From assembly GCA_004195045.1 (NCBI GenBank), contig SGBC01000003.1, forward strand, positions 186,001-250,000: a stretch of DNA of 64,000 nucleotides. Reading direction: 5' to 3'. The notes under the pieces were generated by a model, which did no database searches, was not told the origin of the DNA, and saw nothing but the letters and a program-made list of their open reading frames with translations. Below, piece by piece: positions 4,146 to 23,901 of the stretch; within the stretch, counting starts at the first letter, position 1; every line of letters starts with the position of its first letter. A program made the translations under genes and the position numbers. The DNA comes from Candidatus Acididesulfobacter guangdongensis. Its GTDB lineage: Bacteria > SZUA-79 > Acidulodesulfobacterales > Acidulodesulfobacteraceae.

Positions 4146-5051
4146 ATGTACAACGGTCTATTTATCAACTCAAATCAGTCTGCGGTTATCGCAGAAACAA
4201 ACCTTCAAAATACTAATAACCAGTTGGGCCAGTCGTTAAATGAACTTTCCAGCGGTCTTAAAATTACGGGTGCGTGGGTTAATCCAGCAGGCTATGAAAT
4301 AGCTCAGGGATTAAATGCAACAGGTCTGGGTATTTCGCAGGCAACGGCAAACGCCAACAACGGCAATTCTTTAATTAACATCGCGTCGGGCGCATTGTCG
4401 ACGATTCAGGGCATGCTCGGCACTATGCAGACGCTTGCTACCAACGCTGCGAACGGTACTAACAGTACTCAAAATTTGCAGGCGCTTGAAAGCGAATTTT
4501 CTCAGCTTGCTTCAGAAATTACCCAGATAGCGAGTTCTACGTCGTTTAACGGTCTCAATCTTCTGACCGGCGGAAGCGGCAGCACTATCGGTGTAAGTGA
4601 TTTTACATTTCAGATAGGTACCAATTCAGACACTGCTACAAGCCAGATTTCCGTATCTATACAGGGTGTAGCCGCTGGTCTTCTCGGATTGGCATCTTCT
4701 GGCGGTACTATTATTAACTCGTCTTTAAATAATGTAACTCTTGTTGGTTCAACTACCGACAATACTTCTGCGTTAGTCGCTCTTTCCGCTGTTCAGGCTG
4801 CTATAAACCAGGTTTCGGGTATAAGCGGTCAGCTCGGTTCTTATCAGAACAGGGTTACGCAGATTATGGCTAATCTTCAGACGGAAGGCACAAATACTTC
4901 TGCAGCGTACGATAATATTATGGACGTTAATTTTGCTAAGCAGACATCGCAATATACGCTGCTTTCAACATTAGCCCAATCTGGCGAGGCTATGCTTTCC
5001 CAGGCTTCTACTGTCAATCAGGGGCTTTTAAACTTAGTAAGGGCAATATAA
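4146..5051 (+). CDS. fliC: Flagellin (filament protein)
   Basis: Main subunit of the flagellar filament, secreted through the flagellar type III pathway. It is 301 residues long and short in its variable centre. The N-terminal D0/D1 helices include NTNNQLGQSLNELSSGLKI near residues 22-40 and the IASSTSFNGLNLLTG turn near 130-144. The C-terminal D0 helix includes YDNIMDVNFAKQTSQYTLLS and ends SQASTVNQGLLNLVRAI. The extreme N-terminus (MYNGLFINSNQS) differs from the usual MAxxINTN. Many Ser and Thr residues in the middle (about 150-215) are possible O-glycosylation sites for the neighbouring glycosyltransferases. A strong Shine-Dalgarno sequence (GGAGG) precedes the ATG, and the leader carries CsrA-like sites. 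Confidence 0.95.
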   Translation: MYNGLFINSNQSAVIAETNLQNTNNQLGQSLNELSSGLKITGAWVNPAGYEIAQGLNATGLGISQATANANNGNSLINIASGALSTIQGMLGTMQTLATNAANGTNSTQNLQALESEFSQLASEITQIASSTSFNGLNLLTGGSGSTIGVSDFTFQIGTNSDTATSQISVSIQGVAAGLLGLASSGGTIINSSLNNVTLVGSTTDNTSALVALSAVQAAINQVSGISGQLGSYQNRVTQIMANLQTEGTNTSAAYDNIMDVNFAKQTSQYTLLSTLAQSGEAMLSQASTVNQGLLNLVRAI

Positions 5052-5197: not shown

Positions 5198-5266
5198 TGA
5201 TTCCATAAACAGTGTTTTCATATTTTTTGTTGCAGATAGAAGACACAAAAAGAGGCGGTGTGTGCT

Positions 5267-5722
5267 ATGACTAATATAGCGGACAGTCTAAATTCGATAA
5301 ATGTTCAACAGGGAGGTTTCTCTGGTAACGCCGCTGTTCCTCATGCCGGCGGTTCGCAAAGTGTTGCGGGCGATTTAGCAAAAGTAAATTCTGAGGCTGC
5401 AGGTGCGGTTTTTGTCTCCGCAAACGGAACGCAAAATACCGGCAGCGTCAAGTCTGCAGTGAAAGATACGGCTGTGCCTGTTGTTGAGGCAAATAAAAAT
5501 TTACAGACGGTTCTTAAGGCTGAGATCAAAGAAAGTTTAAATCCTGTTCCTGCGCTTTCAACATTAACCCTTTTTAAATGGGACCCGAAAGCCGGCGGAA
5601 CTGTTATAGATATAGTTAACTCTAAAACCGGAAAGGTCGAGTCGCAGATTCCGTCCGAGGAGTTTATAAAGTACATGATGTCTCATTACCAGAAAGGGGC
5701 ATTGCTGAACGAGAAATTATAA
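5267..5722 (+). CDS. flaG: FlaG family flagellar protein
   Basis: Small flagellar accessory protein that in other bacteria influences filament length; its biochemical role is unclear. The family core is the C-terminal half: ALSTLTLFKWDPKAGGTVID, then IVNSKTGKVESQIPSEEFI, where SxTGxVxxQIPxEE is the hallmark. The N-terminal 70 residues are low in complexity. A GTG lies at 5258, but it falls directly on the AGGCGG ribosome site (5253-5258), so the ATG at 5267 with 8 bases of spacing is the better start. Its position between flagellin and fliD is the usual gene order. Confidence 0.85.
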   Translation: MTNIADSLNSINVQQGGFSGNAAVPHAGGSQSVAGDLAKVNSEAAGAVFVSANGTQNTGSVKSAVKDTAVPVVEANKNLQTVLKAEIKESLNPVPALSTLTLFKWDPKAGGTVIDIVNSKTGKVESQIPSEEFIKYMMSHYQKGALLNEKL

Positions 5723-5889: not shown

Positions 5890-7365
5890 ATGTCTGTCCC
5901 TTCATTAAGCAGCAGTGCCGCAAGCAGCGGAAGCACTCCTATTTCATACCCTAATCAGGGGTTAATAGTCGCCGGTACGGGACTGTCTTCCGGAATAGAT
6001 TATACTACCTTGCTCAATGCAATAGATAAGAGTCTTTCAGAGCCTATTACGCTTATGAAAGACCAGGAGTCGCCGTTAAACAATGAATTGAGCGCATGGA
6101 GCACGATAGGTTCAGCTGTGTCTAATTTAAATTCTGCCGCTGCTGCGTTAGGTCAGACTTCGCTGTTTAATACATATTCTGCTACATCAAGCGATTCTTC
6201 GGTTGCAACGGCAACTGCTTCATCGTCGGCGATTCCGGGAACTTATAGTCTAAGCGTCAGCGCTCTTGCTACTCAGGATGTTATGGCTTCTCAGGGAGTT
6301 GCGGCAACTTCAACCGCGGTGTCCAGCTCAGGAGCTACAGGAACTTATGATATAACGGTAAACGGAAAAACAACCGATGTGGCTTTAAATTCTTCCACCG
6401 GCTATACGCTTGCCGATCTTTCTCAAGCAATAAACAATTCAGGTGCCGGAGTCAGCGCATCGATTATAAATAACGGCAGCTCTACCGATCCGTATCAGCT
6501 TGTTCTGACCAGTAATAATACCGGAACGAATAACGATATATCTGTAACTGATCCGACGCTTGCTACGTCTTCTACCGCTACTGCCCTTACTTTTTCAACG
6601 ACGCAAGCAGCTCAAAATGCAGCTTTGACTTACGGCGGAATAAGTATTACGAGCCAGTCAAATACGGTTAATGACGTCATTCCGGGTGTCACATTAAATC
6701 TGGCTTCTACAGGTTCTGCTACTATTACGGTTGGGCTTGATACAAACGCGATAGATTCTGCCGTGAATAATTTTGTATCTTCTTATAATAAACTGCTAAG
6801 CGATGCGTCGGCTCAGCAGACATACAATAAGAGTACTAAATCAACAGGACCGCTCGGCGGTAATCCTGCGCTCGCCAGTCTTGTAAACAGTTTATACAGT
6901 TTTATGGGAAGCGAAGCTCCGGGCATGACAGGCAGCAGCGGACTTCCTTCGACCTACGGAATTACCGAAAACGCAGACGGTTCCGGTCAACTGCAGCTTA
7001 ATGCAACGACATTAAACAGTATGCTGACATCGAATCCTCAGCAGGTTCAGCAATTTTTCAGCGCGCTTGCAAACGGGTCTCCGACAGCCGACGGTGTTTC
7101 CGAAAAAGGAGGAATGACCAATTTTTTAAATTCTTACACAAATCCTGCAAACGGGGTTATTTATTTTGAGCAGCAGCAGATTAATTCGCAGCTTAAAAAC
7201 ATGAACAAGCAGATTGCTTCTCAAACCGCAATGGTGCAGCAGCAGATGGGGATGTATGTAAAACAGTTTGCAGCTTTAGAACAGTACGTCGGAGAGATGA
7301 AAACTACAAGTGCCGCATTGGCAAGCCAGATAGGTCAGATGCCGTCAACAACCACAGGCGGTTAA
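5890..7365 (+). CDS. fliD: Flagellar hook-associated protein 2 (filament cap)
   Basis: Forms the cap at the filament tip under which flagellin subunits fold. It is 491 residues long, typical of the family. The N-terminal signature GLSSGIDYTTLLNAIDKSL lies near residues 31-49 and is followed by a coiled segment (EPITLMKDQESPLNNELSAW). The middle is Ser/Thr-rich and repetitive (about 95-290). The C-terminal D0/D1 coil includes SVAEKGG-like SEKGGMTNFLNSYTNP and the closing helix NKQIASQTAMVQQQMGMYVKQFAALEQ (in part). A strong AAGGAGG ribosome site lies 10 bases before the ATG. It stands between flaG and fliS, the conserved order. Confidence 0.93.
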   Translation: MSVPSLSSSAASSGSTPISYPNQGLIVAGTGLSSGIDYTTLLNAIDKSLSEPITLMKDQESPLNNELSAWSTIGSAVSNLNSAAAALGQTSLFNTYSATSSDSSVATATASSSAIPGTYSLSVSALATQDVMASQGVAATSTAVSSSGATGTYDITVNGKTTDVALNSSTGYTLADLSQAINNSGAGVSASIINNGSSTDPYQLVLTSNNTGTNNDISVTDPTLATSSTATALTFSTTQAAQNAALTYGGISITSQSNTVNDVIPGVTLNLASTGSATITVGLDTNAIDSAVNNFVSSYNKLLSDASAQQTYNKSTKSTGPLGGNPALASLVNSLYSFMGSEAPGMTGSSGLPSTYGITENADGSGQLQLNATTLNSMLTSNPQQVQQFFSALANGSPTADGVSEKGGMTNFLNSYTNPANGVIYFEQQQINSQLKNMNKQIASQTAMVQQQMGMYVKQFAALEQYVGEMKTTSAALASQIGQMPSTTTGG

Positions 7366-7545: not shown

Positions 7546-8013
7546 ATGCTTAACACTGGTGCGTATCAATATCAAAATGTCGCAGCTTCTACAATAGATA
7601 ACGGAACTGTTATTCTTATGGCATATGAAGGAGCCATTACTTTTATTCAACAGGCAAAAGAAAAACTTGCTCAGAATGATTATGCTGGAAAATCTATTGC
7701 TATATCCAATGCCGTTGCTTTAATAAATGAGTTGAATTTAAATCTTAATATGGAAAAAGGCGGAGAAACCGCAAAAAATCTTAGCAAGCTTTATGTTTTT
7801 TTATCATATCATCTCACTACCGCAAATCTTAAGAAAGATTCTCATAAACTTGATGAATCTTTAGTGGTTTTAGAAAATCTTGTAAACGGCTGGAAAATAA
7901 TTTTAGAGAAAGAAAAACAGCGTGCGGCGGCGTCAGCTAATGCTATACCCGAAAGTTCGGTTGCTAACGATACGGTAAACGCAGCAGTATCATCGGTGTC
8001 AAGCCGCATATAA
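7546..8013 (+). CDS. fliS: Flagellin export chaperone
   Basis: Binds the C-terminal disordered helix of unassembled flagellin in the cytosol and delivers it for export. The opening GAYQYQNVAASTIDNGTVILMAYEG (in part) matches the family, as do AISNAVALINELNLNLN and the helix around LYVFLSYHLTTANLKKD. It is 155 residues long, slightly above the usual 130 because of an Ala/Ser-rich tail from about 130. The ATG follows GGAG at about 10 bases. In Bacillus, FliW and CsrA sense free flagellin; no fliW is in the window. Confidence 0.9.
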   Translation: MLNTGAYQYQNVAASTIDNGTVILMAYEGAITFIQQAKEKLAQNDYAGKSIAISNAVALINELNLNLNMEKGGETAKNLSKLYVFLSYHLTTANLKKDSHKLDESLVVLENLVNGWKIILEKEKQRAAASANAIPESSVANDTVNAAVSSVSSRI

Positions 8014-8195: not shown

Positions 8196-10127
8196 ATGGG
8201 TAATAGCGCTGTATTTGTTTTTCAGATGAGAAGAATCGGCGATTTTTTTCAGTCGATTCCTTTAATAGACGGTCTGTATGCGAAGACAGGTATAAAAAAA
8301 ATTAATGAAACAGCAAAAAATAAAGAAGAATCGAGAAATAAAGAAGAATTAAGAGAGAAAGAGAAATCAGAAAAAGAAGAAGAAATAGAAAAGAAAGTAA
8401 AAATCGATATATTTGCCGATATTAATATTACGGCTATAAAAGATTTTTTAATCGACGATGTTAAGCTTGTAACATTTAAAGATTTGTTTCCGGCGGAGGA
8501 CGAAGATTATATCCGCCGGAATGATTCAGATTTTTTTAATTTATTTGATAATATAAGATACTGCGTTCTCCCTCTATTTAGTCGGTACGGTCTGGCTGCA
8601 AATCTCAATTATGATATCCTAAGCGGTCTTTTATTGGATTTTTTCGATAATGCAAATAAAAAAGGCTTTATATGTATTAATAAATCCCTTAAAACTTCTG
8701 AAGCGCTTTTGCGCCACGGAGCGGCTAATTATTTTTATAATTCTGTCAAAAACAGAAAACTCAATAAGCTCAATATAATTGATATATTTTCTCTTATAGG
8801 TCTGAATAAGCCTGCTGAATTAAAAATAAATTATGATATTTTAAAATTAAAATTTAACACCGAAAACAAAAATAAAAAAAATAAAAACAATAGAAGCAAG
8901 TTTAGAATCTGCATATCAACAGGCGCTTCGTCAGAAAAAAGATTATGGAGCACAAAAAATTATTCAAGACTTGCAGAACTGCTGCTGAAACATTTTAACT
9001 GCGAAATAACGTTTATAGGCACCAAGGAAGATGTTCCCGCTGCTGCGGCAATTAAAGATTTGCTGTTTTCTCGGTTATCTGACCCCGATAATATAAATAT
9101 TACCGACAATACAGGTAATTTGTACAATAAAGAGAATATTGAAAGGAAAATAATAGATATAACCGGAAAAACCTCATTAAGCGAGCTTATTTATATAATT
9201 AAAGATTTTGACCTTATAATCTCGACAGACACTGGCACGCTTCATATAGCCCAGATTTTACAAGTGCCGGCAGTTTCTATTTTTATCGGCAACGCAAATT
9301 TTTACGAAACTGGTCCTCATTTAAATAAATCTTATGCGATATGCTCTAAGGCAGCTTGTTATCCGTGCTTGGAGCATGACCTGTGCAGATATAATTTTTC
9401 ATGCAAAAATGATATAAAGCCCGAGGATGTATTTTCGCTGGCTGTTATGACGCTGAGAAAAAGCGGTTCTGCAAGAAAAGAGCTTATCTCTAATATCAAG
9501 AAAGGTAATTCTGAGGTTTTTTTCTGCGCCAATGCAGGTTCTATCCATTACTATCCTTTAGTAAAAAAATATATAAATAAAAATGAATTGGCATCTGAAA
9601 TTTTAAAATACTGCTGGATTTATATTCTTTCAGGGTGCGGTGTTGAGCCTGACATTGACAATATTTTGAAAAATTGTAAAAAATATTATAAAATAAGCAC
9701 GGCATTAATAGAAGAATTACAGTCGGATATTTCTTTTGTTATAACCGTTTTTGAAAACGGAAAACTTTCTTTCGCAAGGCTAGTCGGCGGCGGACTGGCA
9801 AATAGTTCGGATAGTCAGGAAAACAGTTCTTACGCTAAGTATTTTGACAGGTTTAAGAAAGCAGTAAAAGAAATAGGACGTAATTATGGATATTTAAAAC
9901 TTGTTACGGATTATTTTATCGATGAGATAGATTTCTATAAAAATTCCGGCTCTAGTTCAGATTCAAACCCATATTCCGGTTCAGGTTCAAGCATAGATGA
10001 AAACCTATATGCAGATTCTGATGCCGGTTCAGACTTTATAGAAAAAACTTTTAACGATATAGTTTTGCTTTTAGACACGGCGGTAGATATTTTAACTCAG
10101 CTTGCCGCTATTGACCGAATAGCTTGA
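8196..10127 (+). CDS. GT9-family (heptosyltransferase-like) glycosyltransferase, extended
   Basis: Probable glycosyltransferase with the ADP-heptose:LPS heptosyltransferase fold. N-terminal FQMRRIGDFFQSIPLIDGLY (residues about 9-28) is the GT9 start motif. The donor-binding half has ISTGASSEKRLWSTKNYSRL near 243-262 and DLIISTDTGTLHIAQILQVP near 340-359, followed by GNANFYETGP. A cysteine cluster (CYPCLEHDLCRYNFSC, about 387-402) may bind metal. The N-terminal half contains a Lys/Glu-rich insert (about 33-68), and about 200 extra C-terminal residues are unrecognised and Ser-rich. At 643 residues it is nearly twice the usual GT9 length. Position after fliS suggests flagellin glycan assembly rather than LPS; that is inference. 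Confidence 0.75.
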   Translation: MGNSAVFVFQMRRIGDFFQSIPLIDGLYAKTGIKKINETAKNKEESRNKEELREKEKSEKEEEIEKKVKIDIFADINITAIKDFLIDDVKLVTFKDLFPAEDEDYIRRNDSDFFNLFDNIRYCVLPLFSRYGLAANLNYDILSGLLLDFFDNANKKGFICINKSLKTSEALLRHGAANYFYNSVKNRKLNKLNIIDIFSLIGLNKPAELKINYDILKLKFNTENKNKKNKNNRSKFRICISTGASSEKRLWSTKNYSRLAELLLKHFNCEITFIGTKEDVPAAAAIKDLLFSRLSDPDNINITDNTGNLYNKENIERKIIDITGKTSLSELIYIIKDFDLIISTDTGTLHIAQILQVPAVSIFIGNANFYETGPHLNKSYAICSKAACYPCLEHDLCRYNFSCKNDIKPEDVFSLAVMTLRKSGSARKELISNIKKGNSEVFFCANAGSIHYYPLVKKYINKNELASEILKYCWIYILSGCGVEPDIDNILKNCKKYYKISTALIEELQSDISFVITVFENGKLSFARLVGGGLANSSDSQENSSYAKYFDRFKKAVKEIGRNYGYLKLVTDYFIDEIDFYKNSGSSSDSNPYSGSGSSIDENLYADSDAGSDFIEKTFNDIVLLLDTAVDILTQLAAIDRIA

Positions 10128-10357: not shown

Positions 10358-12469
10358 ATGAGTTTAATAGATATGGATGCTAACAATTGTTTTGAAAAGA
10401 ATGCTGAAATTTTAAAGAAAATCAATCCCGTTTTATTAGAAAAGATTTTAGCTTTTCGTAAAACTTCAGGCATAAATTTAGAACAAAACACAAAACTAAC
10501 ATTTGAACTTCTGCCCGCGAGAACAGGTATGCCGCATGAATGCTGCGGCGGCTCGACTTTTAAAATTAACGGCATAACCGTACATTCAGTGTATGATCCG
10601 GTTGCGGAAGGGAAAAAATGGGCAGCGTCCGTAATTGAAAAGTACGCTAAAAAGCACGAAAAGCCGGAAAATATTATTATATTCGGACTCGGTTTCGGCT
10701 ATCATATAAAAGAGCTTATAAAGCTGCTTGAAAACAGATACGGAGAGATAAATCCGCTTAAAATTTCCGTACTTGAACCGTCCATAGAGTCTCTTAATTT
10801 TATATTGAGCAGCTGCGACTTTTCAGAATTGCTGTATAATAAAATATTGCTTTCCGTGCCTGAAAAGGATATTGTATTCGGCGAAACTGACCGGCAATTA
10901 TTTGAACTTATTTCATATAAAAATATTTTTAAAAACGAATATACCCGCATACATAAGATATTTAACATAAATCAGTTTTTCAGCCCTTCTTCTTTCAGAG
11001 TTCTTATAGCCCAGCCTATGTACGGCGGTTCTTCTACAATAGGAAATTATATATACAGGGCTTTTCTGAATTGCGGATATAACGCCGATATTATGGATTT
11101 TTCCAGATTTTACGATGGGTATAAGTATCTGAACGAATTTACCCAGAACGAAGACCATATTAATTCATTAAGGCAGATGCTTTCAAATCTTATGTCCGAA
11201 GCTCTGCTTTCGGCAGTGATGAACAATCCGCCCGATATGGTACTTTTTATGGCACAGTCGCCTGCGACTGAGAGGGTTATTTTAAGACTTAGGAGTATGG
11301 GAATAATCACGGCATACTGGTTTGTAGAAGATTTCAGAACGCTCACCTACTGGAGCGGCATAGCCAAACATGTCGATTATTTTTTCACAATCCAGAAGGA
11401 TGATTTTTTTAAAGAATTGGAGAATATGGGTCTGCACAATTTTTACTATATACCTCTTGCCTGTCTTCCGTCATTTCATGATAGAATCGCCAAAAATAGC
11501 AATAATGATGCAGATATTAAAGGTGCCGATAAAAACTATAATAAAAATAATACTGCTAATAATAATTACGATAGTGTTAGTTATAATAATAATGATGATG
11601 ATACTATTATAGATAATAATGATGTCAGCAATAAGCGTAATAACAGCAATGATGCAAATGATGCAGATAATAACGTCAATAAATATGACGATGATGAAAA
11701 AAAATACGGCAGCGATGTGAGTTTTGCAGGCGCAGGCTATTTTAACAGGAAAAACGTATTTGCAAAACTTACCGATTTTAATTTTAAAATATGGGGCAAT
11801 GACTGGATAGCCGATATGCCTTTGAGCCTTTTAATACAGGACGGCGGAAAACGTTTTACCGAAGAAGAAGCCGTAAAGATATATAATTATTCAAAGATAA
11901 ATATCAATCTTCATTCATCAATGTGGCACTGGGATATAAATCCCGACGGAGATTTTTTAAATCCGCGCGTTTACGAGATACTTGGCTGCGGCGGATTTCA
12001 GCTCGTTGACAGGCGCAGATATTTAAAAGGTATTTTTGAAGACGGCAAAGACTTAGTAGTATTTGATAGCGTGGAAGATTTAAGAAAAAAAATACGCTAT
12101 TATTTAGATAACGAAGCTGAACGGTCGGCTATCGCCGAACACGGCTACAATACCGTCAGAAAACATCATACTTACGAACGGCGTGTTTCCGAAATAATGA
12201 ATATAATACTCTTAAATTCTTATGATGCTATAAAAAATAAATTAGTATCAAGACGCGAAAATATATTAAAACTTCTTAAGGAAACGGAAAAAGAACCTGA
12301 GCTGCACAGTCTGATTGAGATATTCAGAGACAAGGGCTCAGTTTCTATAGCCGAGCTGGTTGATTATATCAGGAGAGGCAAGGGCAGGCTGTCAAAAACA
12401 GAGTCTATGATTCTTATGCTGTGGTCGCTGAAAGCCCGCGCCGCAAAATTAGATAAAGACCATGATTAA
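10358..12469 (+). CDS. CgeB-like glycosyltransferase with N-terminal Rossmann-like domain
   Basis: Likely a retaining GT-B glycosyltransferase of the CgeB/DUF3880 type. The N-terminal domain (to about residue 205) contains IIIFGLGFGYHIKELIKLLE, a nucleotide-binding-like turn seen in motility-associated proteins. From about 215 a GT-B core begins (RVLIAQPMYGGSSTIGNYIY). The C-terminal CgeB part has INLHSSMWHWDINPDGDFLN and PRVYEILGCGGFQLVD, with the usual Glu-ILGCGG nucleotide-sugar motif near 548-556, then GKDLVVFDSVEDLRKKIRYY. Between them lies an Asn/Asp-rich insert (about 382-448). Such genes commonly follow flagellin loci, so flagellin glycan extension is the best guess. Confidence 0.7.
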   Translation: MSLIDMDANNCFEKNAEILKKINPVLLEKILAFRKTSGINLEQNTKLTFELLPARTGMPHECCGGSTFKINGITVHSVYDPVAEGKKWAASVIEKYAKKHEKPENIIIFGLGFGYHIKELIKLLENRYGEINPLKISVLEPSIESLNFILSSCDFSELLYNKILLSVPEKDIVFGETDRQLFELISYKNIFKNEYTRIHKIFNINQFFSPSSFRVLIAQPMYGGSSTIGNYIYRAFLNCGYNADIMDFSRFYDGYKYLNEFTQNEDHINSLRQMLSNLMSEALLSAVMNNPPDMVLFMAQSPATERVILRLRSMGIITAYWFVEDFRTLTYWSGIAKHVDYFFTIQKDDFFKELENMGLHNFYYIPLACLPSFHDRIAKNSNNDADIKGADKNYNKNNTANNNYDSVSYNNNDDDTIIDNNDVSNKRNNSNDANDADNNVNKYDDDEKKYGSDVSFAGAGYFNRKNVFAKLTDFNFKIWGNDWIADMPLSLLIQDGGKRFTEEEAVKIYNYSKININLHSSMWHWDINPDGDFLNPRVYEILGCGGFQLVDRRRYLKGIFEDGKDLVVFDSVEDLRKKIRYYLDNEAERSAIAEHGYNTVRKHHTYERRVSEIMNIILLNSYDAIKNKLVSRRENILKLLKETEKEPELHSLIEIFRDKGSVSIAELVDYIRRGKGRLSKTESMILMLWSLKARAAKLDKDHD

Positions 12470-12521: not shown

Positions 12522-14678
12522 ATGAAAATGAAAAGGATTATAATATTAAATCTCACCAGAATGGGCGATATTATACAGTCAACCGCCTTATTTAAAAAAA
12601 TAAAGTTTTTTTACCCCGAAAGTATTGTCACCCTTATTATTTCGGCTGAATTTTATGAAATAACGCCTTTTCTGTCCTATATAGACGATATAAGGCAGGT
12701 GAAGTTAAAAGGATTAACCGAAATGCTGAAATCTGCAAATTTTGAATTTAATTCTGCTATATATGAAGCCGTTAATGCTATGATTTCGGATGAAATTAAA
12801 AATATAAAATACGACATAGCTATAAATCTTTCGCATGACGAATTCAGCGTCTATTTTCTTTATATGCTGAATTCTAAAAGAAATATCGGTATTTCCATAA
12901 CCCGCGAAGGAAATATAGTTTCTAACGATAAAATGATAGCATACTTGTTTTCTGCTGTCAGAAATAGAAAGGCAAGCGTTTTAAATCTTGTAGATATTTA
13001 TGCAAGATGCCTTGACGGACTGCCTGAAAACAGAAATAAATATTATAAGGCAGACAGAAATGAAATAGCATTATCTTTTAAGAATGAAACTATTGCAGAA
13101 TTCAAAAATAATTTACAAGAATACGGCATAAGACCTGAAGCAGGAGATGTAATAGTATCTTTTGCTATAGGCGCTTCGATGAAGTCAAAGAAATGGCATA
13201 TGGATTATTTTGCTGCGCTTGCCGGTATGCTTTTAAATTACAACGCAAAAATAAAAATAGCGCTGCTGGGCGCCCCTTATGATATAGAAAACGGACTCTA
13301 TATAGAAAAAAAAATTGCCGAAACGGAAACCGGCGAAGAATTTTTAGCAGCCCGAAGACTCATAAATCTTACTGGCAAAACATCTATCGCAGGTTTAGCT
13401 TATACCGTCGGAGCGAGCAAACTCCTTATTACCCACGATACAGGAACAATGCATATAGGTGTCGGTTTAAAAATAGACCTTGTGGTTATTTATACCGGAC
13501 ACGTCGGATTTATGGAAACCGGACCTTACGCCGAAAATATGGCGCTTGTCACGCCGGATATCGGCTGCTTTCCATGCGATTTTCATATTAAATGCATGAA
13601 TCCTGTATGTAAAAATCTTATTAAACCTGAATATATTTTTGATATTGCAAAAACTAAATTAGAAAAGAGTCTTAATAAATTGAATGTTTCTAATGTTCCA
13701 GATGTTCCAGATGTTCAAGATGTTCAAGAAGTTTCAGAAATTTTAGAAGTTTCGGCAGATTTTTCAGATACATCAGGAATACATGATGTTTCAGACGTTG
13801 TTGATGCTAAAGACTATTTTTCAAAATACAAAAAAAGCGGTATAATACCGTACATTTCAAGATTTGATGCGAACGGATTTATCGACTTTTTGCCTGCATC
13901 CGGAGGCAGACTTACGCTTAAAGCTCTAAAACTGAGAATTTTAAAACTTTCGCTTGAATATTTTTATATACAAGATTTTAAACTTAATTCAGACAGGAAA
14001 GACAAAACTGAAGACAGCGGTGATGAAAATAATAACAACGGTAATAAAAAAAGTAACAATACCAACAATACTAACAACAACGATAACAATAATAACAATA
14101 GCAACAATAACAACAATAATAGCGGTTATGATAATAATAACGGCAGTAATAAAAAAAATAATAATAACAACGATAATAATAATGGCGTTTATGGCAAGAA
14201 TAGCGGCGGCATACACCATGAAATAGACCTTTTTATTGATTGTTTCAGCGAATTCACAGACATATATGATTCTTACGGTGCTGAAGGCGGCGTTGACGAT
14301 GAATTTAGCGTCATTGATGATATGCTCTGTTTATGTGTGGAAGGCATGAATGAAGCAAAGAATTTGGTGAATATAGCATTAAACGACCCTCTTAACTTGG
14401 AAAAAATAGATAAAGTCATGACCGTTATGAAATCTATAGATTATAATCTGCAGCATATTTCATCGCCTTATGATGAACTATGCCTTATAAACTATATTCA
14501 TGTTATAAATTTAAACAGTACCGTCAGTTATGATATATTCGGTATGGCTGTGGATTCGTTAAAAAATTATAGCGGTTATAAACACCAGCTGATTATATTC
14601 AAGAAAATATGGTCGCTCTTTTTTGATAAACTTTTAATAAAATATGGAACCAGCAGAACTGGCAAAAAAGAGGAATAA
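12522..14678 (+). CDS. GT9-family (heptosyltransferase-like) glycosyltransferase, second copy
   Basis: Paralogue of the protein at 8196-10127. It starts ILNLTRMGDIIQSTALFKKI (about 8-27), the GT9 opening. IGASMKSKKWHMDYFAALAG lies near 220 and LLITHDTGTMHIGVGLKIDL near 305-324, then VGFMETGPYAENMALV. A Cys set (CFPCDFHIKCMNPVC) matches the one in the first copy. Residues about 385-430 carry Val-Pro-Asp type repeats, and about 495-560 are almost pure Asn with Lys, Asp and Ser. The family core ends before these tracts; the last 150 residues are unrecognised but shared in position with the first copy. It is 718 residues long. Confidence 0.75.
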   Translation: MKMKRIIILNLTRMGDIIQSTALFKKIKFFYPESIVTLIISAEFYEITPFLSYIDDIRQVKLKGLTEMLKSANFEFNSAIYEAVNAMISDEIKNIKYDIAINLSHDEFSVYFLYMLNSKRNIGISITREGNIVSNDKMIAYLFSAVRNRKASVLNLVDIYARCLDGLPENRNKYYKADRNEIALSFKNETIAEFKNNLQEYGIRPEAGDVIVSFAIGASMKSKKWHMDYFAALAGMLLNYNAKIKIALLGAPYDIENGLYIEKKIAETETGEEFLAARRLINLTGKTSIAGLAYTVGASKLLITHDTGTMHIGVGLKIDLVVIYTGHVGFMETGPYAENMALVTPDIGCFPCDFHIKCMNPVCKNLIKPEYIFDIAKTKLEKSLNKLNVSNVPDVPDVQDVQEVSEILEVSADFSDTSGIHDVSDVVDAKDYFSKYKKSGIIPYISRFDANGFIDFLPASGGRLTLKALKLRILKLSLEYFYIQDFKLNSDRKDKTEDSGDENNNNGNKKSNNTNNTNNNDNNNNNSNNNNNNSGYDNNNGSNKKNNNNNDNNNGVYGKNSGGIHHEIDLFIDCFSEFTDIYDSYGAEGGVDDEFSVIDDMLCLCVEGMNEAKNLVNIALNDPLNLEKIDKVMTVMKSIDYNLQHISSPYDELCLINYIHVINLNSTVSYDIFGMAVDSLKNYSGYKHQLIIFKKIWSLFFDKLLIKYGTSRTGKKEE

Positions 14679-14779
14679 ATTTAAAGTTTTTAGATTAAAT
14701 CTATAATTAAATAAATAATAATTAAATAATAATTAAATCTTCTGTAATTTATTTATAGCAAATATTAAGAAGATGTGCA

Positions 14780-14850
14780 GAGATATAATAAGATATAACA
14801 AATATAAATAAGATATACGCAAATATAATAAGATATAATAAGTTAAATAA
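14780..14850. repeat. AT-rich AAGATATAA repeat tract
   Basis: Several imperfect copies of AAGATATAATA and ACAAATATAAAT lie in the 208-bp spacer before the sulfotransferase gene. No gene or clear promoter is seen here. Confidence 0.4.
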
Positions 14851-14886: not shown

Positions 14887-15888
14887 ATGAATAATGAACG
14901 CAACGGAACAGAAAAACGCATTATAGCAGTAGTCGGAGTGCCGAGAAGCGGAACGAGCGCTATCACTAAGGGACTTGATGCGCTCGGCATATATATAGGG
15001 AAAGCTCGTTATAGTCCGCCGGATATCGGAAATGAAAAAGGTTTCTTTGAGGATGCCGATATTAATTCGCTTAATTACGGATTGTTAAAAATATTAACAG
15101 GCAAACCGGATAATGCAATTTTAATAAATTTGAAAAACATACCGGATCAAGCTATAAGTATCTTTAAAAGTGCTGCTAAAGATATTCTTAAAGAACGATT
15201 AGGCAATACGGATATTTTTGGTTTTAAAGACCCGTTTATTGCTAAACTGCTGCCAATATGGCAGGAAATCTTCAACGAACTTAAATTGAATGTTTCGTAT
15301 GTTGTTGCCTGCAGAAATCCGAAAAGCTCCGCCCTTTCTATGGTTAAGCGGGGAAATATGGATATTATCATTGCGTATTATATATGGCTGAGCGGTATGG
15401 TTTCTGTTTTAGACTGTATTTTAAACCCTATGTTTATGTCTAGTTCTGACGCTGTTTTCGTTGATTACGACGATATGCTTGAAAACCCTGAGGCGCAGCT
15501 TCTAAAAATTGCATTACGGCTAAAACTTGAAATAGACAATAAAAATAATCCTGCTCTCAAAGAATATACGGCGGATTTTTTAACAAATAGCATGAGGCAT
15601 GCCGCTTTTACTATTGAAGATTTAAGAATTGACAAGAATATACCGCCGAAGGTTGCAGAATTTTATATTTTATTAAGAAAATTATGCTTAGAAGATTTTT
15701 CTATAACAGATTCGAATGTTGCCAGAGAATTTACAAAAATTAAAATATGGCTTAAAGAACTCAGCTCCACTATTTTTTTTATGCAGGCTTCTTATAATAC
15801 CTTGCTTGCCATGAATGAAGTGCTTATTGACAAAGAAAATAAAATAGCGGAGCTTGGCAAAACTATTGACGCTCTCTCAGAAAAATAA
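14887..15888 (+). CDS. Sulfotransferase-like protein
   Basis: Probable PAPS-dependent sulfotransferase. The 5'-phosphosulfate-binding loop is VVGVPRSGTSAITKGLDAL near residues 16-34. A second family feature is SYVVACRNPKSSALSMVKRG near 137-156, where Arg and Ser in the family hold the 3'-phosphate. It is 333 residues long with a coiled tail (DKENKIAELGKTIDAL). It is followed after an A-rich 112-bp spacer by the APS kinase gene cysC, the enzyme that makes PAPS. Inside a flagellar glycosylation cluster this suggests sulfation of a glycan or of flagellin. Acceptor and activity are inferred. Confidence 0.7.
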   Translation: MNNERNGTEKRIIAVVGVPRSGTSAITKGLDALGIYIGKARYSPPDIGNEKGFFEDADINSLNYGLLKILTGKPDNAILINLKNIPDQAISIFKSAAKDILKERLGNTDIFGFKDPFIAKLLPIWQEIFNELKLNVSYVVACRNPKSSALSMVKRGNMDIIIAYYIWLSGMVSVLDCILNPMFMSSSDAVFVDYDDMLENPEAQLLKIALRLKLEIDNKNNPALKEYTADFLTNSMRHAAFTIEDLRIDKNIPPKVAEFYILLRKLCLEDFSITDSNVAREFTKIKIWLKELSSTIFFMQASYNTLLAMNEVLIDKENKIAELGKTIDALSEK

Positions 15889-15999
15889 AAAGAAAGATAA
15901 AAACAAAAAGAAAAATAATAAAGAAAAATAAAAACAAATATAAATATAAAAATTAAGAAAAATAAAAATAAAAATAAAAATGGAAATGGAAAAATAAAG
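15885..15999. repeat. A-rich spacer with AAAAATAAAAA repeats
   Basis: About 115 bp that are almost only A with scattered T, C and G (AAAATAAAAAC-type units) separate the sulfotransferase and APS kinase genes. It encodes nothing recognisable, and the cysC ribosome site within it is poor. Confidence 0.5.
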
Positions 16000-16000
16000 A

Positions 16001-16600
16001 ATGACTTCAAACGTTGTCTGGCAAAAACATATTATAAAGCGGGAAGATAGGGAAAAACTAAACGGACACAGAGGGTTTGTTTTATGGTTTACCGGACTCA
16101 GCGGAAGCGGAAAAAGCACTATCGCCGGTTTGCTGGAAGCAGAACTGCACAAAAAAAAATTTCATACATATCTTATGGACGGCGATAACATTAGACATAG
16201 GCTTAATACTGATTTAGGGTTTTCTGATTTTGACAGAAATGAAAACATCAGAAGAACTGCCGAAATAGCAAGGCTTTTTGCAGATGCAGGACTCATAACT
16301 ATAGTGCCGTTTATTTCGCCTTTCAGGGACGGCAGACAATATGCAAAAGAAATTATCGGAGAAGATGATTTTGTAGAGGTTTTTATAGATGCTCCGCTTT
16401 GCGACTGTGCCGCAAGGGACGCTAAAGGCTGGTATAAAAAGGCGTTTGACGGTGAAATAGATAATTATACAGGGGTAGATTCGCCTTATGAAAAGCCGCT
16501 GTCTGCAGATTTACACATCAAGACGCCGAATATACGTTTTGAAGAAGCCGTGAGAAAAATTATTGATTATATTAAAAAAAATGAGTTGTTAAATTTATAA
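16001..16600 (+). CDS. cysC: Adenylylsulfate (APS) kinase
   Basis: Phosphorylates adenosine 5'-phosphosulfate to PAPS, the activated sulfate donor. It is 199 residues long and complete. Walker A is WFTGLSGSGKSTIAG at about 28-42; DGDNIRHRLNTDLGFSDFDR (about 60-79) is the APS-binding and lid region; PFISPFRDGRQYAKE is near 104-118, and KGWYKKAFDGEIDNYTGVDS with PYEKP follows. No ATP-sulfurylase genes (cysDN or sat) are nearby, so it works on imported APS flux from elsewhere in the genome. The sulfotransferase-like neighbour implies a dedicated PAPS supply for modifying cell-surface or flagellar sugars. Confidence 0.93.
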   Translation: MTSNVVWQKHIIKREDREKLNGHRGFVLWFTGLSGSGKSTIAGLLEAELHKKKFHTYLMDGDNIRHRLNTDLGFSDFDRNENIRRTAEIARLFADAGLITIVPFISPFRDGRQYAKEIIGEDDFVEVFIDAPLCDCAARDAKGWYKKAFDGEIDNYTGVDSPYEKPLSADLHIKTPNIRFEEAVRKIIDYIKKNELLNL

Positions 16601-16751
16601 TTTATATTATAATTGATATGTTCAATTTTAGTCAAATTAGTTAAAAAACTTTATTGATATTTATTTATAGTTATTATTTATTTAGTTATTGATATTTATT
16701 TATATTATAGTTATTAATTGATTTATATTTATTTATATTCGGAGGAGTCAA

Positions 16752-17369
16752 ATGCAGCTTTTAGTCGATGATAATCAGGTACAGATATTACCTCAGTGGA
16801 AGACTATGAATGATATTTTATACGGCAGCATTAAAGATATTTTACCTGAAGGCAGACTGATTAAGAAAATAGACGTTAACGGAAACGATTACAGCGAACT
16901 TATGGCAGATTCGGAAAAATCAAAAGCCGTGATTATATCGAACGGCGATAATATAAAAATTACAACCATGAGCCATAAAGAAATGCTTGACGGGTCAATA
17001 AATTCTGTGATACTTTTTTTTAACGAATTTAAAAAAGGTATCGATAAAACAGCAGACAGCATAAGGTGGGGCAATTATTCCGGAGGATTTACCGATTTTG
17101 CCAGCTATCTCACAGGATTAAGTGTTTTTGTTCAGATAATGGATAAGATTGCTCAATTTGCAAAGCTTGATTATAGCAATATTACTTACAAAGGAAAATC
17201 TATACAATCTCATTTTAGCGATTTAGAAAAAGTGCTGTCGTCTATCATGTCAACGCAGAAAGATGCCGATTATACGCTGCTAACCGATATAATAGAATTT
17301 GAATTAAAACCGGATATTGATGTATGGCTAGGCATAATGGAAGAAATGAAGAAAAATATAAAACTTTAA
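16752..17369 (+). CDS. Uncharacterised protein in the flagellar glycosylation cluster
   Basis: I do not recognise this 205-residue protein. It has no signal peptide or membrane segment and starts MQLLVDDNQVQILPQWKTMN. The first 80 residues look like a small beta-rich domain, and the rest is mainly helical (FNEFKKGIDKTADSIRWGNY, then a region ending EFELKPDIDVWLGIMEEM). A good ribosome site (GGAGGA) lies 7 bases before the ATG, so it is really expressed. Its place between cysC and a giant glycosyltransferase suggests a flagellar or glycosylation accessory role, for instance as a chaperone or regulator. This is inferred from context only. Confidence 0.6.
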   Translation: MQLLVDDNQVQILPQWKTMNDILYGSIKDILPEGRLIKKIDVNGNDYSELMADSEKSKAVIISNGDNIKITTMSHKEMLDGSINSVILFFNEFKKGIDKTADSIRWGNYSGGFTDFASYLTGLSVFVQIMDKIAQFAKLDYSNITYKGKSIQSHFSDLEKVLSSIMSTQKDADYTLLTDIIEFELKPDIDVWLGIMEEMKKNIKL

Positions 17370-17458
17370 CGGTATTTTTATTTTATGATAGATATATATA
17401 AAACTAAAATAAAAATACAGAGCAATATTGTCACGTATTGCTGCATAAAAAAGTTTTA

Positions 17459-20400
17459 ATGTCTATGAAACCCGTAAATATAGCAAATGAGAATGAAATA
17501 AACGAATTAATTCTTCATATAAACGAAAAATTAATTAACGAAGAGATTTTTGAGTTTTTTATCGTAAAAAATTATCTTCGTCTTCCATCATTGGAAGAAA
17601 AACTTTTCGCAAATAATTTTTTAATTTCAGCATTAGCCGAATACCATGATTATATAAAAATAATTGTAAGAAAATTGTTCGATTTAACTTCCATATCCGA
17701 TAGTTTGAGCAGTTTAATATCAGATACGGATAAAGACAGCAAAAAAACTCTAAGCGCAGGTCCAAACTTAAATCTGTGTCCAAATTTAAATCAAAATATA
17801 GTTATAGATTTAGATATAAAAGCTCAATCGTTGGCGTTTGGCAACTTGAAAGATTTTCGTCTGCTTACAAAAATTCTGTCTCTTTTCCCAGATTCTTCCC
17901 TTAAAAAACTGACGATAAACGACATTAACTTTCAGCTTACTTATAAAAATCTTGAAGAATTATTTTTTGAATCTTTCAGGGTCATATCATGCGGGTCTTC
18001 GTTCTATATTAACTACAAAGAAGAAATTTTTTCGGAACGTTTGCTTAAGGGATATCTTGAATATGCCGGATTCATTGATGTGTATCCGGCGTCAGCCCCT
18101 GGCGAATATGAATACGGTAAAATTAAAATATCTGCAAAAAAGGAGTCTTTATCTGATTTATCAAAAAAACCTAAAAAAGTTTTATTAAATATAGAATCTG
18201 AAAAACCGGAAAATTTAATAAAATATTCTGTTTTTATAAGAGATTTGCACAATAAATATAACAACTGGGATTTATACTTAGTGTCTGATGAATGGAAATT
18301 TTATGATGAAAATATCTATTTAAAATATTGTTCGGATAAGCTGCCGCCCAACGAAAAATTTGATTACGGCGTTTATCTTGACGATTCTGAAAATAACTTT
18401 GCATCAGATGTAGATTATCCTTTGAAACCGCTAAACAGCAGAAAAGCAGATGTTTTTTTCTCTCGGGAAAATTTTGAAAATGTTAGTATGTTTCTGAAAT
18501 CACACGGCATAAGACCGGATGACTTATTTTGTATTTTAGACACGGCTTTCATATGCAGTAATGATAGTAACGGCAGCGTTAGTAATAAAAGCAATGTTCA
18601 CGATGAGGACAGCATCGCCGGTAACAATAATTATAATAGCGGCAGCGGTAAAAGCTGTGCTATCAGCTGGACAGACCGCGACATCAGCGGCAATTATGCC
18701 AAAGACGCATTAGAATTTTTTAATAGAATGCTTTCGGTTTATTTTCCGTATATATACAAAATTGGTTTTAAAATTCTATTTTTAGAAGATGATTTTAATA
18801 TACTCTCATTGAAAGATAAAGCGCTGCTGATGCAGCTCGCTTCATATTATGCCGGCGGCGGATTCAATTATTTTCTTGCTGATTCTCTGAGCGTTTCTTC
18901 CAATAATATAAGTTTAGATAAAATCAATTATAAAATACCGCATAATAATGCAAAAGATGATAGCGTTGGTGATGCCGGTGATAATAATAATTACGATGTA
19001 TCTATAATTATACCGGTCTATAATAATTTTAAATACACAAAACAGTGTGTTTTTTCAATATTCAGAAATCATCCGCTGGTAAATTTTGAGATAATTATCG
19101 TTGATAACGGCTCTACGGATGAAACCAGAGAATTTTTCAAAAGTTTTCAGGAGCTCGAAAATTTCAAAATTATATCCAATAAAGAAAATCTAGGTTTTGC
19201 AAAAGCTTCTAATCTTGGGGCGAGCTTATCAAAAGCGCCATATATACTTTTTTTAAATAACGACACGGTTGTTTCCAAAGGAGCAATAGACGAGCTGTAT
19301 TGCTCTCTAACAGCAGAAGATGCAAAATCTTCCGGCGTAGCGGCTTCCGGTCCGCTGCTTTTATATCCTGACAGAAAAATTCAGTCTGCGGGAATAATGT
19401 TTGAACGCCGCCTCATTCCAAATGTTTTGTCAGGAGTCGATGTAACCGGATGTAAGAATTCAGATGCTAAGAATATAATATATCTGCGAAATTTTAACGC
19501 CCTTACGGCAGCATGTTTGTTAGTTAAAAAAGATATATTTTATGATGTCGGCGGTTTTGATGAGAATTATATTAACGGATACGAAGACGTAGATTTATGT
19601 CTTAAATTAAGGGAAGCAGGCAATAAGTTAATATTTAATCCTAAAAGTATAGTTTTTCATTTTGAAAAAAAAACGTATGGAAGAAACAAATATGATATCG
19701 ATAACATTAACCGTTTTCACAGAAAATGGAAGCATAAATATAAAGCCGATGATTATATATTTGCAAAAATGGATAATTTGCTTTACATGGAACAATCAGA
19801 GAGCAATGACAGCACTTTGCCTAACAAAATTATCCCGCTTACAGTTATAAAGCTGACAGAAAATAAAATAGACGACCTTATTGCCGAGAAAAATTATAAC
19901 GAAGCAATAAAACTTTCCGACCACTTATTGACTATAGATAAATATAATATTAAAAACCGTAAAAAAAACGAAGAGATAAAGCTTGAAATAATAAAAACAA
20001 AGAATAAAAAATCGGAATCAGAAAAACATATTAATCTGTTATTAGAAGAAAAAGAAAGAATGCTTTTTTCGTATCGTACGATTATCAATAACATTATTAA
20101 ATCCAATAAGGACGTCAAAATATCGTTAGACCAGAATGAAATTTATAAGATATGGATTAAATATAATGAACCTTCTGAAATTGAACTTGAGCGGCAAACG
20201 ACGTTTAAATTTAAATACAGTCCTAAAATAAGCGTTATTATGCCTGTCTATAACACTCCTGAAGAATATTTAAGGAAAGCAATAGAGTCTGTTATTAATC
20301 AGACTTATCAAAACTGGGAGCTGTGTATTGCAGATGACGCTTCTGCAAAGCCGTATATAAAAGAAATATTAAAATATTATCAGGAACAGGATAAAAACGG

Positions 20401-21865
20401 AAGAATAAAAATTGCGTACAGAACCGAAAACGGTCATATTTCAAAAGCATCCAACAGTGCTTTGTCTATAGCAACCGGAGATTATATCGCATTATTGGAC
20501 CATGACGATGAGCTTGCAGAATTTGCGTTATTTGAAGTTGTTAAAGAAATAAACGAGCATCCCGATGCAAAATTGCTTTACAGCGATGAAGATAAACTGT
20601 ATATTGACGGCAGCAGGTTTATGCCTTATTTTAAATCCGACTGGAATCCCGACCTTTTTTTATCTCAGAATTTTATAAGCCATTTAGGCATTTACAAAAA
20701 GTCTGTAATTGATGAAATAAATGGCTTTAGAGAAGGATATGAAGGTTCTCAAGATTACGATTTAGCACTTCGGTTTATTGAAAAAATTAAATATAACGAA
20801 ATAAGGCATATTCCAAGGATTCTATACCACTGGAGAATGGTAGAAGGTTCAACGGCTATTACAACAAGCAGTAAATCTTATGCTATTATTGCGGCGAGAA
20901 AAGCCGTACAGGATCATTTAGATAGATTAAATATTAAAGCAAAAGTAGTTGAAGCGCCAATGATATTGGATTACAATCGTGTGATTTACGATATAGCAGG
21001 AAATCCTTTAATCAGTTTGATAATTATTACTCATAACGGCTTTCAATTAGTTAAAGACCTTATTGAAAGCATATTTGAAAAAACTTCATATAAAAATTTT
21101 GAGATTATATTAATTAACCGTGATAGCGATGAGTTACAAACATTGGAATATTTAAAATTATTAAAAGAGCATGAAAAAATTAAAGTTTTTGCTTACAATA
21201 AACCTTTTAATTATTCTAAAGTCGTTAATTTGGCGGTAAAATACGCAGGTGGCGAAGTTCTGGTTGTTTTAAATGATGATATGAAGATAATTAACGATGA
21301 TTGGTTAAGAGAGCTTGCTTCTAATGCATTACGTTCTGAGGCTGGGGTTGTCGGAGCCAAACTTTTGTATCTCGACGATACAATTCAGCATGCCGGAGTA
21401 ATAATCGGATCAGACAGAGAAAAAAACTCTATCGCAGTTCACTCTCATCAATTGATAAATAAAGATGCTTCCGGCTATTTCGGAAGAGCGCAGCTATTAC
21501 AGAATTATTCGGCGGTTACCGGCGCCTGCATGGCTCTGAGAACGGATATATATGAAAAAGCAGGCGGAATGGATGAGAATTTAGCCGTAGCATATAATGA
21601 TGTAGATTTTTGCCTGAAAGTTATGCAACTTGGGTACTATAATGTATATACGCCTTACGCGATGCTTTATCATTATGAAAGCAGAACCAGAGGCTACGAA
21701 GATACTGAAGAAAAACAGGTTAGATTTAAAAAAGAGAAAAATTATTTGAAAGCAAAATGGGGTAAATTGTTGGAGCATGATTTTGCATATAATATAAATC
21801 TGAGTTTTCCGGATAATTTATTTTCAATAAAACTACCTGGTGAATTACAAGGAATTTTAAACTGA
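17459..21865 (+). CDS. Giant glycosyltransferase with three GT2 domains
   Basis: A protein of about 1,468 residues. Three GT2 (GT-A) modules are seen: DVSIIIPVYNNFKYTKQCVF near residue 513 with DNGSTDE and FLNNDT as donor motifs; KISVIMPVYNTPEEYLRKAI near 923 with ADDAS and LLDHDDE; and LISLIIITHNGFQLVKDLIE near 1182 with VVLNDDM. The first and third also carry the GGFDENY or GGMDENL acceptor motif. The N-terminal 500 residues hold a methyltransferase-like or decayed module and a Ser/Asn-rich insert (about 368-410). A TTG at 17438 is in frame, but the ATG at 17459 is more likely. Each module could add a different sugar to one flagellar or surface glycan. Confidence 0.8.
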   Translation: MSMKPVNIANENEINELILHINEKLINEEIFEFFIVKNYLRLPSLEEKLFANNFLISALAEYHDYIKIIVRKLFDLTSISDSLSSLISDTDKDSKKTLSAGPNLNLCPNLNQNIVIDLDIKAQSLAFGNLKDFRLLTKILSLFPDSSLKKLTINDINFQLTYKNLEELFFESFRVISCGSSFYINYKEEIFSERLLKGYLEYAGFIDVYPASAPGEYEYGKIKISAKKESLSDLSKKPKKVLLNIESEKPENLIKYSVFIRDLHNKYNNWDLYLVSDEWKFYDENIYLKYCSDKLPPNEKFDYGVYLDDSENNFASDVDYPLKPLNSRKADVFFSRENFENVSMFLKSHGIRPDDLFCILDTAFICSNDSNGSVSNKSNVHDEDSIAGNNNYNSGSGKSCAISWTDRDISGNYAKDALEFFNRMLSVYFPYIYKIGFKILFLEDDFNILSLKDKALLMQLASYYAGGGFNYFLADSLSVSSNNISLDKINYKIPHNNAKDDSVGDAGDNNNYDVSIIIPVYNNFKYTKQCVFSIFRNHPLVNFEIIIVDNGSTDETREFFKSFQELENFKIISNKENLGFAKASNLGASLSKAPYILFLNNDTVVSKGAIDELYCSLTAEDAKSSGVAASGPLLLYPDRKIQSAGIMFERRLIPNVLSGVDVTGCKNSDAKNIIYLRNFNALTAACLLVKKDIFYDVGGFDENYINGYEDVDLCLKLREAGNKLIFNPKSIVFHFEKKTYGRNKYDIDNINRFHRKWKHKYKADDYIFAKMDNLLYMEQSESNDSTLPNKIIPLTVIKLTENKIDDLIAEKNYNEAIKLSDHLLTIDKYNIKNRKKNEEIKLEIIKTKNKKSESEKHINLLLEEKERMLFSYRTIINNIIKSNKDVKISLDQNEIYKIWIKYNEPSEIELERQTTFKFKYSPKISVIMPVYNTPEEYLRKAIESVINQTYQNWELCIADDASAKPYIKEILKYYQEQDKNGRIKIAYRTENGHISKASNSALSIATGDYIALLDHDDELAEFALFEVVKEINEHPDAKLLYSDEDKLYIDGSRFMPYFKSDWNPDLFLSQNFISHLGIYKKSVIDEINGFREGYEGSQDYDLALRFIEKIKYNEIRHIPRILYHWRMVEGSTAITTSSKSYAIIAARKAVQDHLDRLNIKAKVVEAPMILDYNRVIYDIAGNPLISLIIITHNGFQLVKDLIESIFEKTSYKNFEIILINRDSDELQTLEYLKLLKEHEKIKVFAYNKPFNYSKVVNLAVKYAGGEVLVVLNDDMKIINDDWLRELASNALRSEAGVVGAKLLYLDDTIQHAGVIIGSDREKNSIAVHSHQLINKDASGYFGRAQLLQNYSAVTGACMALRTDIYEKAGGMDENLAVAYNDVDFCLKVMQLGYYNVYTPYAMLYHYESRTRGYEDTEEKQVRFKKEKNYLKAKWGKLLEHDFAYNINLSFPDNLFSIKLPGELQGILN

Positions 21866-22593: not shown

Positions 22594-22709
22594 TAGGTAT
22601 AAAAGCCAACGGCTTGGCTTTTATGTTGGGCTTGACTGACAAATTAAGCGTGAGCTGCGCTGCCCTTCGGGTGCAGGACCCGACATAAACGGCATGCGTT
22701 TATACCATT
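22594..22709. repeat. Palindromic insert (about 115 bp) upstream of orfB
   Basis: GGTATAAA near 22597 and TTTATACC at about 22699-22706 form the outer arms, and TTTATGTTGGG resembles the complement of CCCGACATAAA inside them. An inner perfect hairpin is ATAAAAGCC/GGCTTTTAT (22599-22624). The insert separates the OrfA/OrfB junction from the preserved orfB reading frame. It has the form of a MITE. Confidence 0.5.
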
Positions 22710-23343
22710 GTCTATTACAAGGCAGTGCCAGTTGTTACAGTTAAATAGAACTACAATCTATTATGAACATACTGAAAGATTCTTAAATCAAATTATATTA
22801 AACAGGTTAGATGAAATATATACGGAATTTCCGTATTACGGATACCGCCGCATGTATCATACTTTAATTGAGGAAGGCAAAGACGTCAATCCTAAGCAAA
22901 TATTAAGTTATATGAAAATACCGGGTATTAAAGCGCTGTATCCGGCAAAGAAGAAAAACACTTCAATGCCTAACGCAAATCATGAAAAGTATCCGTATCT
23001 TCTAAAAGGTCGTAAGGTAACCAAGCCTAATCAAGTCTGGGCGTCAGACATCACTTATATCCGCCTTAATCACGGTTTTGTTTATCTATTATCAGGCACC
23101 GTAATAGACCTTTATACACGCAGCACGCAGTATTATGTCATGGAGCCTATCTCCTATTATGGACGAAAGGCTTACTATGAATGTATTAAATGACGCTATA
23201 TATAAATACGGAAAGCCTGAAATATTTAATTCAGACCAGGGTTCGCAATATACGGCTCAGAATTTCATTAATATTTTATTAAATCACAATATATCTATTT
23301 CAATGGATTCTAAAGGTCGTGCGATAGACAACATATTTATCAT

Positions 23344-23392
23344 ATCTTCACCTGCGAGTTTTGAAAAGCATGACTTTTCAGCAGGCGAAGAT
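23344..23392. repeat. Compound hairpin inserted in frame in orfB
   Basis: ATCTTCACCTGC (23344-23355) pairs with GCAGGCGAAGAT (23381-23392) with one mismatch, and GAAAAG/CTTTTC form an inner stem. The insertion keeps the reading frame open. Confidence 0.55.
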
Positions 23393-23572
23393 GGGTTCTG
23401 GCGTACTATTAAATGGGACAATATCTATCCTTCGGGCTATGAAACGCTAAAAGAAGCAAGAGCCGGCATCGACGCTTTTATGTATAAATACAACAATCAC
23501 AGGCTGCATTCGTCTTTAGGATATAAACCGCCGCTAAAAGTTTATAATAAATATTTTGAAAAAGCGGCGTAT

Positions 23573-23890: not shown

Positions 23891-23901
23891 CGGAGGAAAA
23901 A

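Follow-up and report, generated by a model that had tools for sequence, protein, structure and literature searches.

A predicted glycan-sulfation cassette in the flagellin operon of Candidatus Acididesulfobacter guangdongensis

The flagellin operon of Candidatus Acididesulfobacter guangdongensis holds, among its glycosyltransferase genes, a divergent sulfotransferase gene (SULT) next to a gene for APS kinase, and it is likely that this cassette, one gene supplying PAPS and the other using it, serves to sulfate the O-glycan of flagellin in the cytoplasm before export. From the gene content and its inheritance the filament of this bacterium probably bears sulfated sugars. The stretch of DNA analysed (the window) comprises 64,000 nucleotides of contig SGBC01000003.1, and the genome it belongs to spans 2.22 Mb in 5 contigs and is 99% complete; statements about the whole genome are based on profile searches.

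The flagellar operon and the sulfotransferase gene

The original prediction placed a sulfotransferase-like gene and an APS kinase together in a set of flagellin and glycosyltransferase genes, and this arrangement is borne out. Both reading frames are intact, their identities follow from profiles and motifs, and they lie on the same strand 112 bp apart, with flagellin, FlaG, FliD and FliS upstream and glycosyltransferases of the GT9, DUF3880/GT1, GT9 and triple GT2 kinds around them. On the + strand the order is as follows.

2170..3957, +, TPR and GT41 (O-GlcNAc-transferase-like) protein upstream of flagellin (PF13844 E=9e-50, TPRs)
4146..5051, +, flagellin, 301 aa (NF009444 E=4e-47)
5258..5722, +, FlaG (PF03646 E=2e-6)
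5890..7365, +, FliD filament cap (NF005955 E=3.5e-58)
7546..8013, +, FliS flagellin chaperone (TIGR00208, above cut-off)
8196..10127, +, GT9 (heptosyltransferase-type) glycosyltransferase a, conserved in the operon (PF01075 E=1e-18)
10358..12469, +, DUF3880 and GT1-like glycosyltransferase (PF13524 E=2e-35, PF12996 E=2e-8)
12522..14678, +, GT9 glycosyltransferase b with an Asn-rich low-complexity stretch (PF01075 E=3e-17; repeats)
14887..15888, +, SULT, predicted sulfotransferase, 333 aa (intact ORF; motifs, sub-threshold Pfam, fold matches, dN/dS)
16001..16600, +, predicted PAPS-making APS kinase, 199 aa (TIGR00455 and NF003013 above cut-off; solved homologs; sole genome copy)
16752..17369, +, U205, conserved flagellar-operon protein of no Pfam or NCBIfam family, with a helical C-terminal half
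17438..21865, +, triple GT2 glycosyltransferase (PF00535 E=2.5e-74, 3 stretches)

The glycosyltransferases adjoin, and are conserved with, the flagellin, FliD and FliS genes, as in a flagellin glycosylation island, and presumably act on flagellin. The DUF3880/GT1 protein gives a weak match to the Maf N-terminal family (PF20157 E=0.009), under the cut-off. U205 occurs in flagellar operons of the family with or without SULT and evolves with the core glycosyltransferases; a fold search returned only non-significant helical-bundle matches, including a FliS-type chaperone at E ~0.3, and so it is given no named function, though it could possibly be a flagellar chaperone or a glycosylation cofactor. 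AT-rich degenerate tandem repeats fill the spaces around the pair (14703-14850, 15881-15998 and 16650-16739), unlike in most relatives, which have almost no gap from SULT to APS kinase. Tandem repeats of Asn codons (AAT/AAC) lie inside or overlap coding regions at 14043-14119, 59645-59923 and 62686-62802, touching GT9b, the start region of HypE, and HypF, and in one of them a 42-bp unit is repeated 4.2 times with 97% identity. Downstream, at 22708-24912, IS3-like and IS110-like transposase fragments (recognised by eye from ORFs) stand between the flagellar operon and rfb-type sugar genes.

SULT is treated here as a divergent member of the PAPS-dependent sulfotransferase superfamily, on motifs plus predicted fold. 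Its matches to PF00685 (E=6e-4, 19.6 bits) and PF13469 (E=9e-4, 20 bits) lie under the curated cut-offs of 22 and 27 bits, such cut-offs being recognition thresholds and not biochemical features; PF13469 is matched at E<=1e-3 by 17 of 20 SULT homologs (best 7e-7), and one ortholog attains the Pfam cut-off when its neighbours are in frame. A 5'-PSB loop near the N-terminus (G17-V-x-R20-S-G-T-S24) and a 3'-PB motif (C142-R143-N-P145...S151) are each invariant in all 20 homologs, and SULT also has K114-D-P. The structural model is of low confidence (pLDDT 56) and the TM scores of its Foldseek matches in the PDB are 0.32-0.41; the matches to this model with E<=1e-3 are all (12/12) PAPS-dependent sulfotransferases. 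Searches of the PDB by phmmer and by profile gave no sequence match, no NCBIfam model matches SULT, and a scan of viral contigs yielded weak partial matches only. The gene is under purifying selection (dN/dS ~0.17-0.24). By inspection SULT has no signal peptide, and with a moderately hydrophobic stretch at residues 160-178 it may associate with the membrane.

Inheritance of the pair and the likely acceptor

Relatives of SULT were found only in the window's own family among the 61 genomes searched, and stretches of up to 20 kb, or reaching to the contig end, were read around them. Every full-length SULT gene lies in a recognisable flagellar operon, whole or as far as the contig extends, and each fetched locus with a full-length SULT and enough flank shows the fliC-flaG-fliD-fliS-GT linkage. 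Complete pairs are on the same strand in 19 of 19 loci, the window included, with gaps of -23 to 136 bp. Such a unit is present in 19 of the 20 family flagellar operons that have SULT and are readable past it, the exception (L050) being from a genome with other APS kinases. Four flagellar operons readable past the slot lack SULT (L069 in G002, L070 in G012, L073 in G025 and L068 in G009); no APS kinase is present at the first three, and in L068 all that is left is a remnant that begins at model position 17 and is missing the P-loop. The association, 19/20 with SULT against 0/4 without, has a nominal Fisher p=5e-4, uncorrected for relatedness and with several loci sharing one genome.

An intact APS kinase is found in 18 of 30 family genomes and is absent from the other 12, and all 18 that have it also carry a sulfotransferase gene, which is the flagellar SULT in 16 and another type in two (G002 and G027), and so APS kinase is not a housekeeping enzyme in this family. 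In G002 and G027 the different sulfotransferase is in a polysaccharide cluster that also holds an APS kinase of a second type, and in G002 these genes also adjoin one for a CysQ-like phosphatase. For one more APS kinase (L063) the sequence read around it shows no sulfotransferase, and the same genome has flagellar pairs. The recurrence of the pair at one position of the operon throughout the family, together with purifying selection, argues against a chance arrangement. The pair has the character of a cassette, since it precedes U205 in the window's closest relatives and follows U205 in most others. Among the core operon proteins (GT9, GT1 and U205) pairwise distances correlate with one another at 0.90-0.94, and those of SULT correlate at only 0.5-0.6 with any operon protein, the SULT types in the family being ~50% and ~41% identical to that of the window; this would fit a stable operon in which sulfotransferase types have been exchanged or duplicated. 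Flagellin length (~300 vs ~360 aa) was considered as a trait tracking the cassette and rejected, as G006 and G016 combine long flagellins with the cassette.

Other genes are seen at or near the slot. In a sister species a Fic/AMPylation protein gene (L069:16116-17219) occupies the place of the sulfation pair, between GT9b and U205. In G009 the flagellar operon is closely followed by a gene for a TPR-sulfotransferase fusion (L068:321-1985, - strand; PF13469 E=3e-41), and no intact APS kinase was found in that genome. This may be a sulfotransferase with no source of PAPS, or the MAG may be incomplete. PF13469 matches in long ORFs also occur in G005, G013, G023, G025 and G028.

It could be argued that the pair sulfates some other surface glycan, such as an LPS O-antigen, a capsule or an exopolysaccharide, its place next to flagellar genes being incidental. 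An rfb-type cluster does lie downstream in the window (25.0-31.2 kb), and nine relatives have a second APS kinase, accompanied in several cases by a sulfotransferase, in a polysaccharide cluster of typical make-up. Yet it is to fliC-flaG-fliD-fliS-GT9-GT-GT9-U205 that the pair is linked in the family, the genes downstream being variable; the polysaccharide clusters bring their own APS kinase and sulfotransferase; and the IS-like fragments part the operon of the pair from the rfb genes. We regard this alternative as unlikely, while giving it some weight, and prefer a flagellar glycan as the target. The second sulfation module of several relatives, at L065:6288-18001 with matching loci L064, L066, L067, L077 and L078, is a polysaccharide cluster with genes for a GDP-mannose dehydratase, an epimerase, an APS kinase, a flippase, a PF13469 sulfotransferase and an asparagine-synthase-like protein.

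That the acceptor would be a sugar is suggested by loci outside the family, where a SULT profile run over 386 genomes found matches in 14 genomes. Among the ten of these loci that were read, six have a SULT-type domain N-terminal to GT2 (sometimes also GT1) in a single polypeptide, two have a GT2 protein as the next gene, and one has a CysN/APS-kinase fusion two genes away. One protein (L115) joins a sulfotransferase to three GT2 domains, parts of the same kinds as those lying a few genes apart in the window operon. Fusion to family-2 glycosyltransferases therefore favours a sugar acceptor. Within ~7 kb of these outside-family genes no flagellin like that of the window was seen, and so the flagellar link is lineage-specific.

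The best fold matches of SULT include tyrosylprotein sulfotransferases, and sulfation of tyrosines, of flagellin or of another protein, might be proposed instead. These matches report only the shared PAPS-binding core, however, and the five flagellin tyrosines (2, 50, 233, 255 and 270) all lie outside the Ser/Thr-rich middle of the protein (residues 141-210, 34% Ser/Thr and zero Tyr). With the SULT-type domain fused to GT2 glycosyltransferases elsewhere, a tyrosine target seems very improbable and sulfation of a sugar is the reading we retain.

Likely source and use of PAPS

By sequence the kinase gene encodes an APS kinase (CysC). The protein scores 238 bits against TIGR00455 (E=4.6e-71, cut-off 138.7) and 271 bits against NF003013 (cut-off 163), and has the P-loop, DGDN, FISPFR and TGxxxPYExP motifs. 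Among solved structures it is closest to APS kinases from plants, fungi and human; it aligns full-length to plant and fungal enzymes (3uie, 1d6j), with the APS-contact stretch (DGDNIR..GFS..DR.ENIRR..FISPFR) aligned to that of solved APS kinases. The gene is under purifying selection (dN/dS ~0.08-0.12). Glycan clusters can hold look-alikes of APS kinase, as does the capsule locus of Campylobacter jejuni, where Cj1415 belongs to the capsular phosphoramidate pathway, but the window kinase passes both profiles above, fails NF004041, and is partnered by a sulfotransferase and not by phosphoramidate genes, so that a pair unconnected with sulfation is scarcely credible.

Sulfur metabolism elsewhere in the genome offers this kinase little other employment. 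The genome has exactly one APS kinase, the window copy, and a single ATP sulfurylase, whose gene lies with aprBA and qmo-like genes on a different contig. As the original prediction stated, no sulfate-assimilation genes adjoin the pair: cysDN, cysH and sulfite reductase genes are all missing beside it, so that this is not an assimilatory sulfate reduction cluster. Genome-wide, neither a sulfite reductase of the NIR_SIR family nor a free-standing PAPS reductase of the CysH type was detected, and reductive assimilation is thus an unlikely use of PAPS. The presence of sat-aprBA and qmo-like genes with no detected NIR_SIR suggests that APS is used in sulfite oxidation and not in sulfate reduction. 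The sole PAPS_reduct domain in the genome forms the C-terminus of an 862-aa phosphodiesterase/sulfatase-like fusion (L039:8000-10588, - strand; ~248.0-250.6 kb of contig C1 of G000). This fusion adjoins an NTP_transferase gene, shows TPPAH where sulfatases have the signature C/S-x-P-S-R, and carries CC and CxxC motifs in its PAPS-reductase-type domain.

No other sulfotransferase passing PF13469 or PF00685 was found in the genome and, with no evident reductive use, PAPS has one evident customer, the neighbouring SULT; since SULT is itself below those cut-offs, a second divergent sulfotransferase could be missed. The product of CysC normally goes to CysH, and with an ATP sulfurylase in the genome the kinase might be held to serve ordinary sulfate assimilation or PAPS storage, its linkage to SULT being incidental, but with the reductive enzymes not found here and 12 of 30 family genomes managing without an intact APS kinase this can be set aside as extremely improbable. 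The pairing, the linkage to the operon, the sole APS kinase and the fusions to glycosyltransferases agree, and so support the original idea of a module within the flagellin glycosylation operon that is dedicated to glycan sulfation and of which the sulfated glycan would be the predicted product.

In the pathway we envisage, ATP sulfurylase (Sat), encoded elsewhere, would make APS, which the operon kinase would phosphorylate to PAPS. SULT would then use PAPS as donor and place its sulfuryl group on a hydroxyl of a sugar chain, either already bound to flagellin or still a precursor, which the neighbouring GT9, DUF3880/GT1 and GT2 enzymes would build on flagellin Ser/Thr residues. This would take place in the cytoplasm, before the export of FliS-bound flagellin, and would give the filament a negatively charged surface. 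A CysQ-type PAP phosphatase was not found in the genome, and PAP may instead be cleared by an NrnA-like phosphatase, a weak candidate that scores below its cut-off.

Known systems and significance

PAPS-dependent sulfotransferases are known in bacteria, with rhizobial NodH and LpsS acting on Nod factor and LPS. Xanthomonas RaxST acts on a peptide tyrosine (PMC4216712). All of these use PAPS to modify secreted or surface molecules, as proposed here, and differ in substrate and gene context. Closer in make-up is the Campylobacter jejuni HS:19 cluster of cysD, cysN, a transporter, cysC, a sulphotransferase and a glycosyltransferase, whose predicted target is the capsule or LOS (PMC8743553). Like the window cassette it brings together APS kinase, sulfotransferase and glycosyltransferase for predicted surface-glycan sulfation, but it has its own ATP sulfurylase and a transporter and adjoins the capsule locus instead of lying in a flagellin operon (PMC8743553). 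Flagellin O-glycosylation islands, as in Aeromonas (PMC9290775) and Clostridioides difficile type B (PMC5207246), share with the window operon glycosyltransferases modifying flagellin, whereas the modifications described for them are nonulosonic acids, methylation or other sugars (PMC9290775, PMC5207246). In the open-access literature we found neither a sulfotransferase/APS kinase pair in a bacterial flagellin O-glycosylation island nor a report of sulfated bacterial flagellin.

The nearest functional parallel is archaeal. In Halobacterium salinarum the sulfotransferases Agl30 (VNG1056C) and Agl31 (VNG1057C) act on the N-glycan of archaellin and S-layer proteins, and effects on motility were tested; the resemblance is that sulfotransferases, one of them cytosolic, act on the glycan of swimming-filament glycoproteins (PMC11980604). 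The differences are that this is an archaeon with an N-linked tetrasaccharide on an archaellum, which is type IV pilus-like and not a bacterial flagellum, and that an APS-kinase pair inside an archaellin operon is neither tested nor reported in the accessible portion of that report (PMC11980604). On balance we lean towards the view that the O-glycan of a bacterial flagellum is sulfated here by a dedicated cassette in the flagellin operon, which would make this flagellum the bacterial equivalent of the haloarchaeal archaellum with its sulfated glycan.

Transcripts of fliC and fliD rank with the most abundant of Ca. Acidulodesulfobacterales (PMC6776010). A flagellin glycosylation operon with a predicted built-in sulfation cassette offers a simple marker, cysC beside a sulfotransferase in a fliC operon, by which further cases may be found. 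Haloarchaea are known to have sulfated swimming filaments and, if the reading given here is true, motility filaments came to be sulfated in both domains. This reading would also mean that an organism with ATP sulfurylase and no evident reductive use of PAPS keeps an APS kinase solely for surface decoration.
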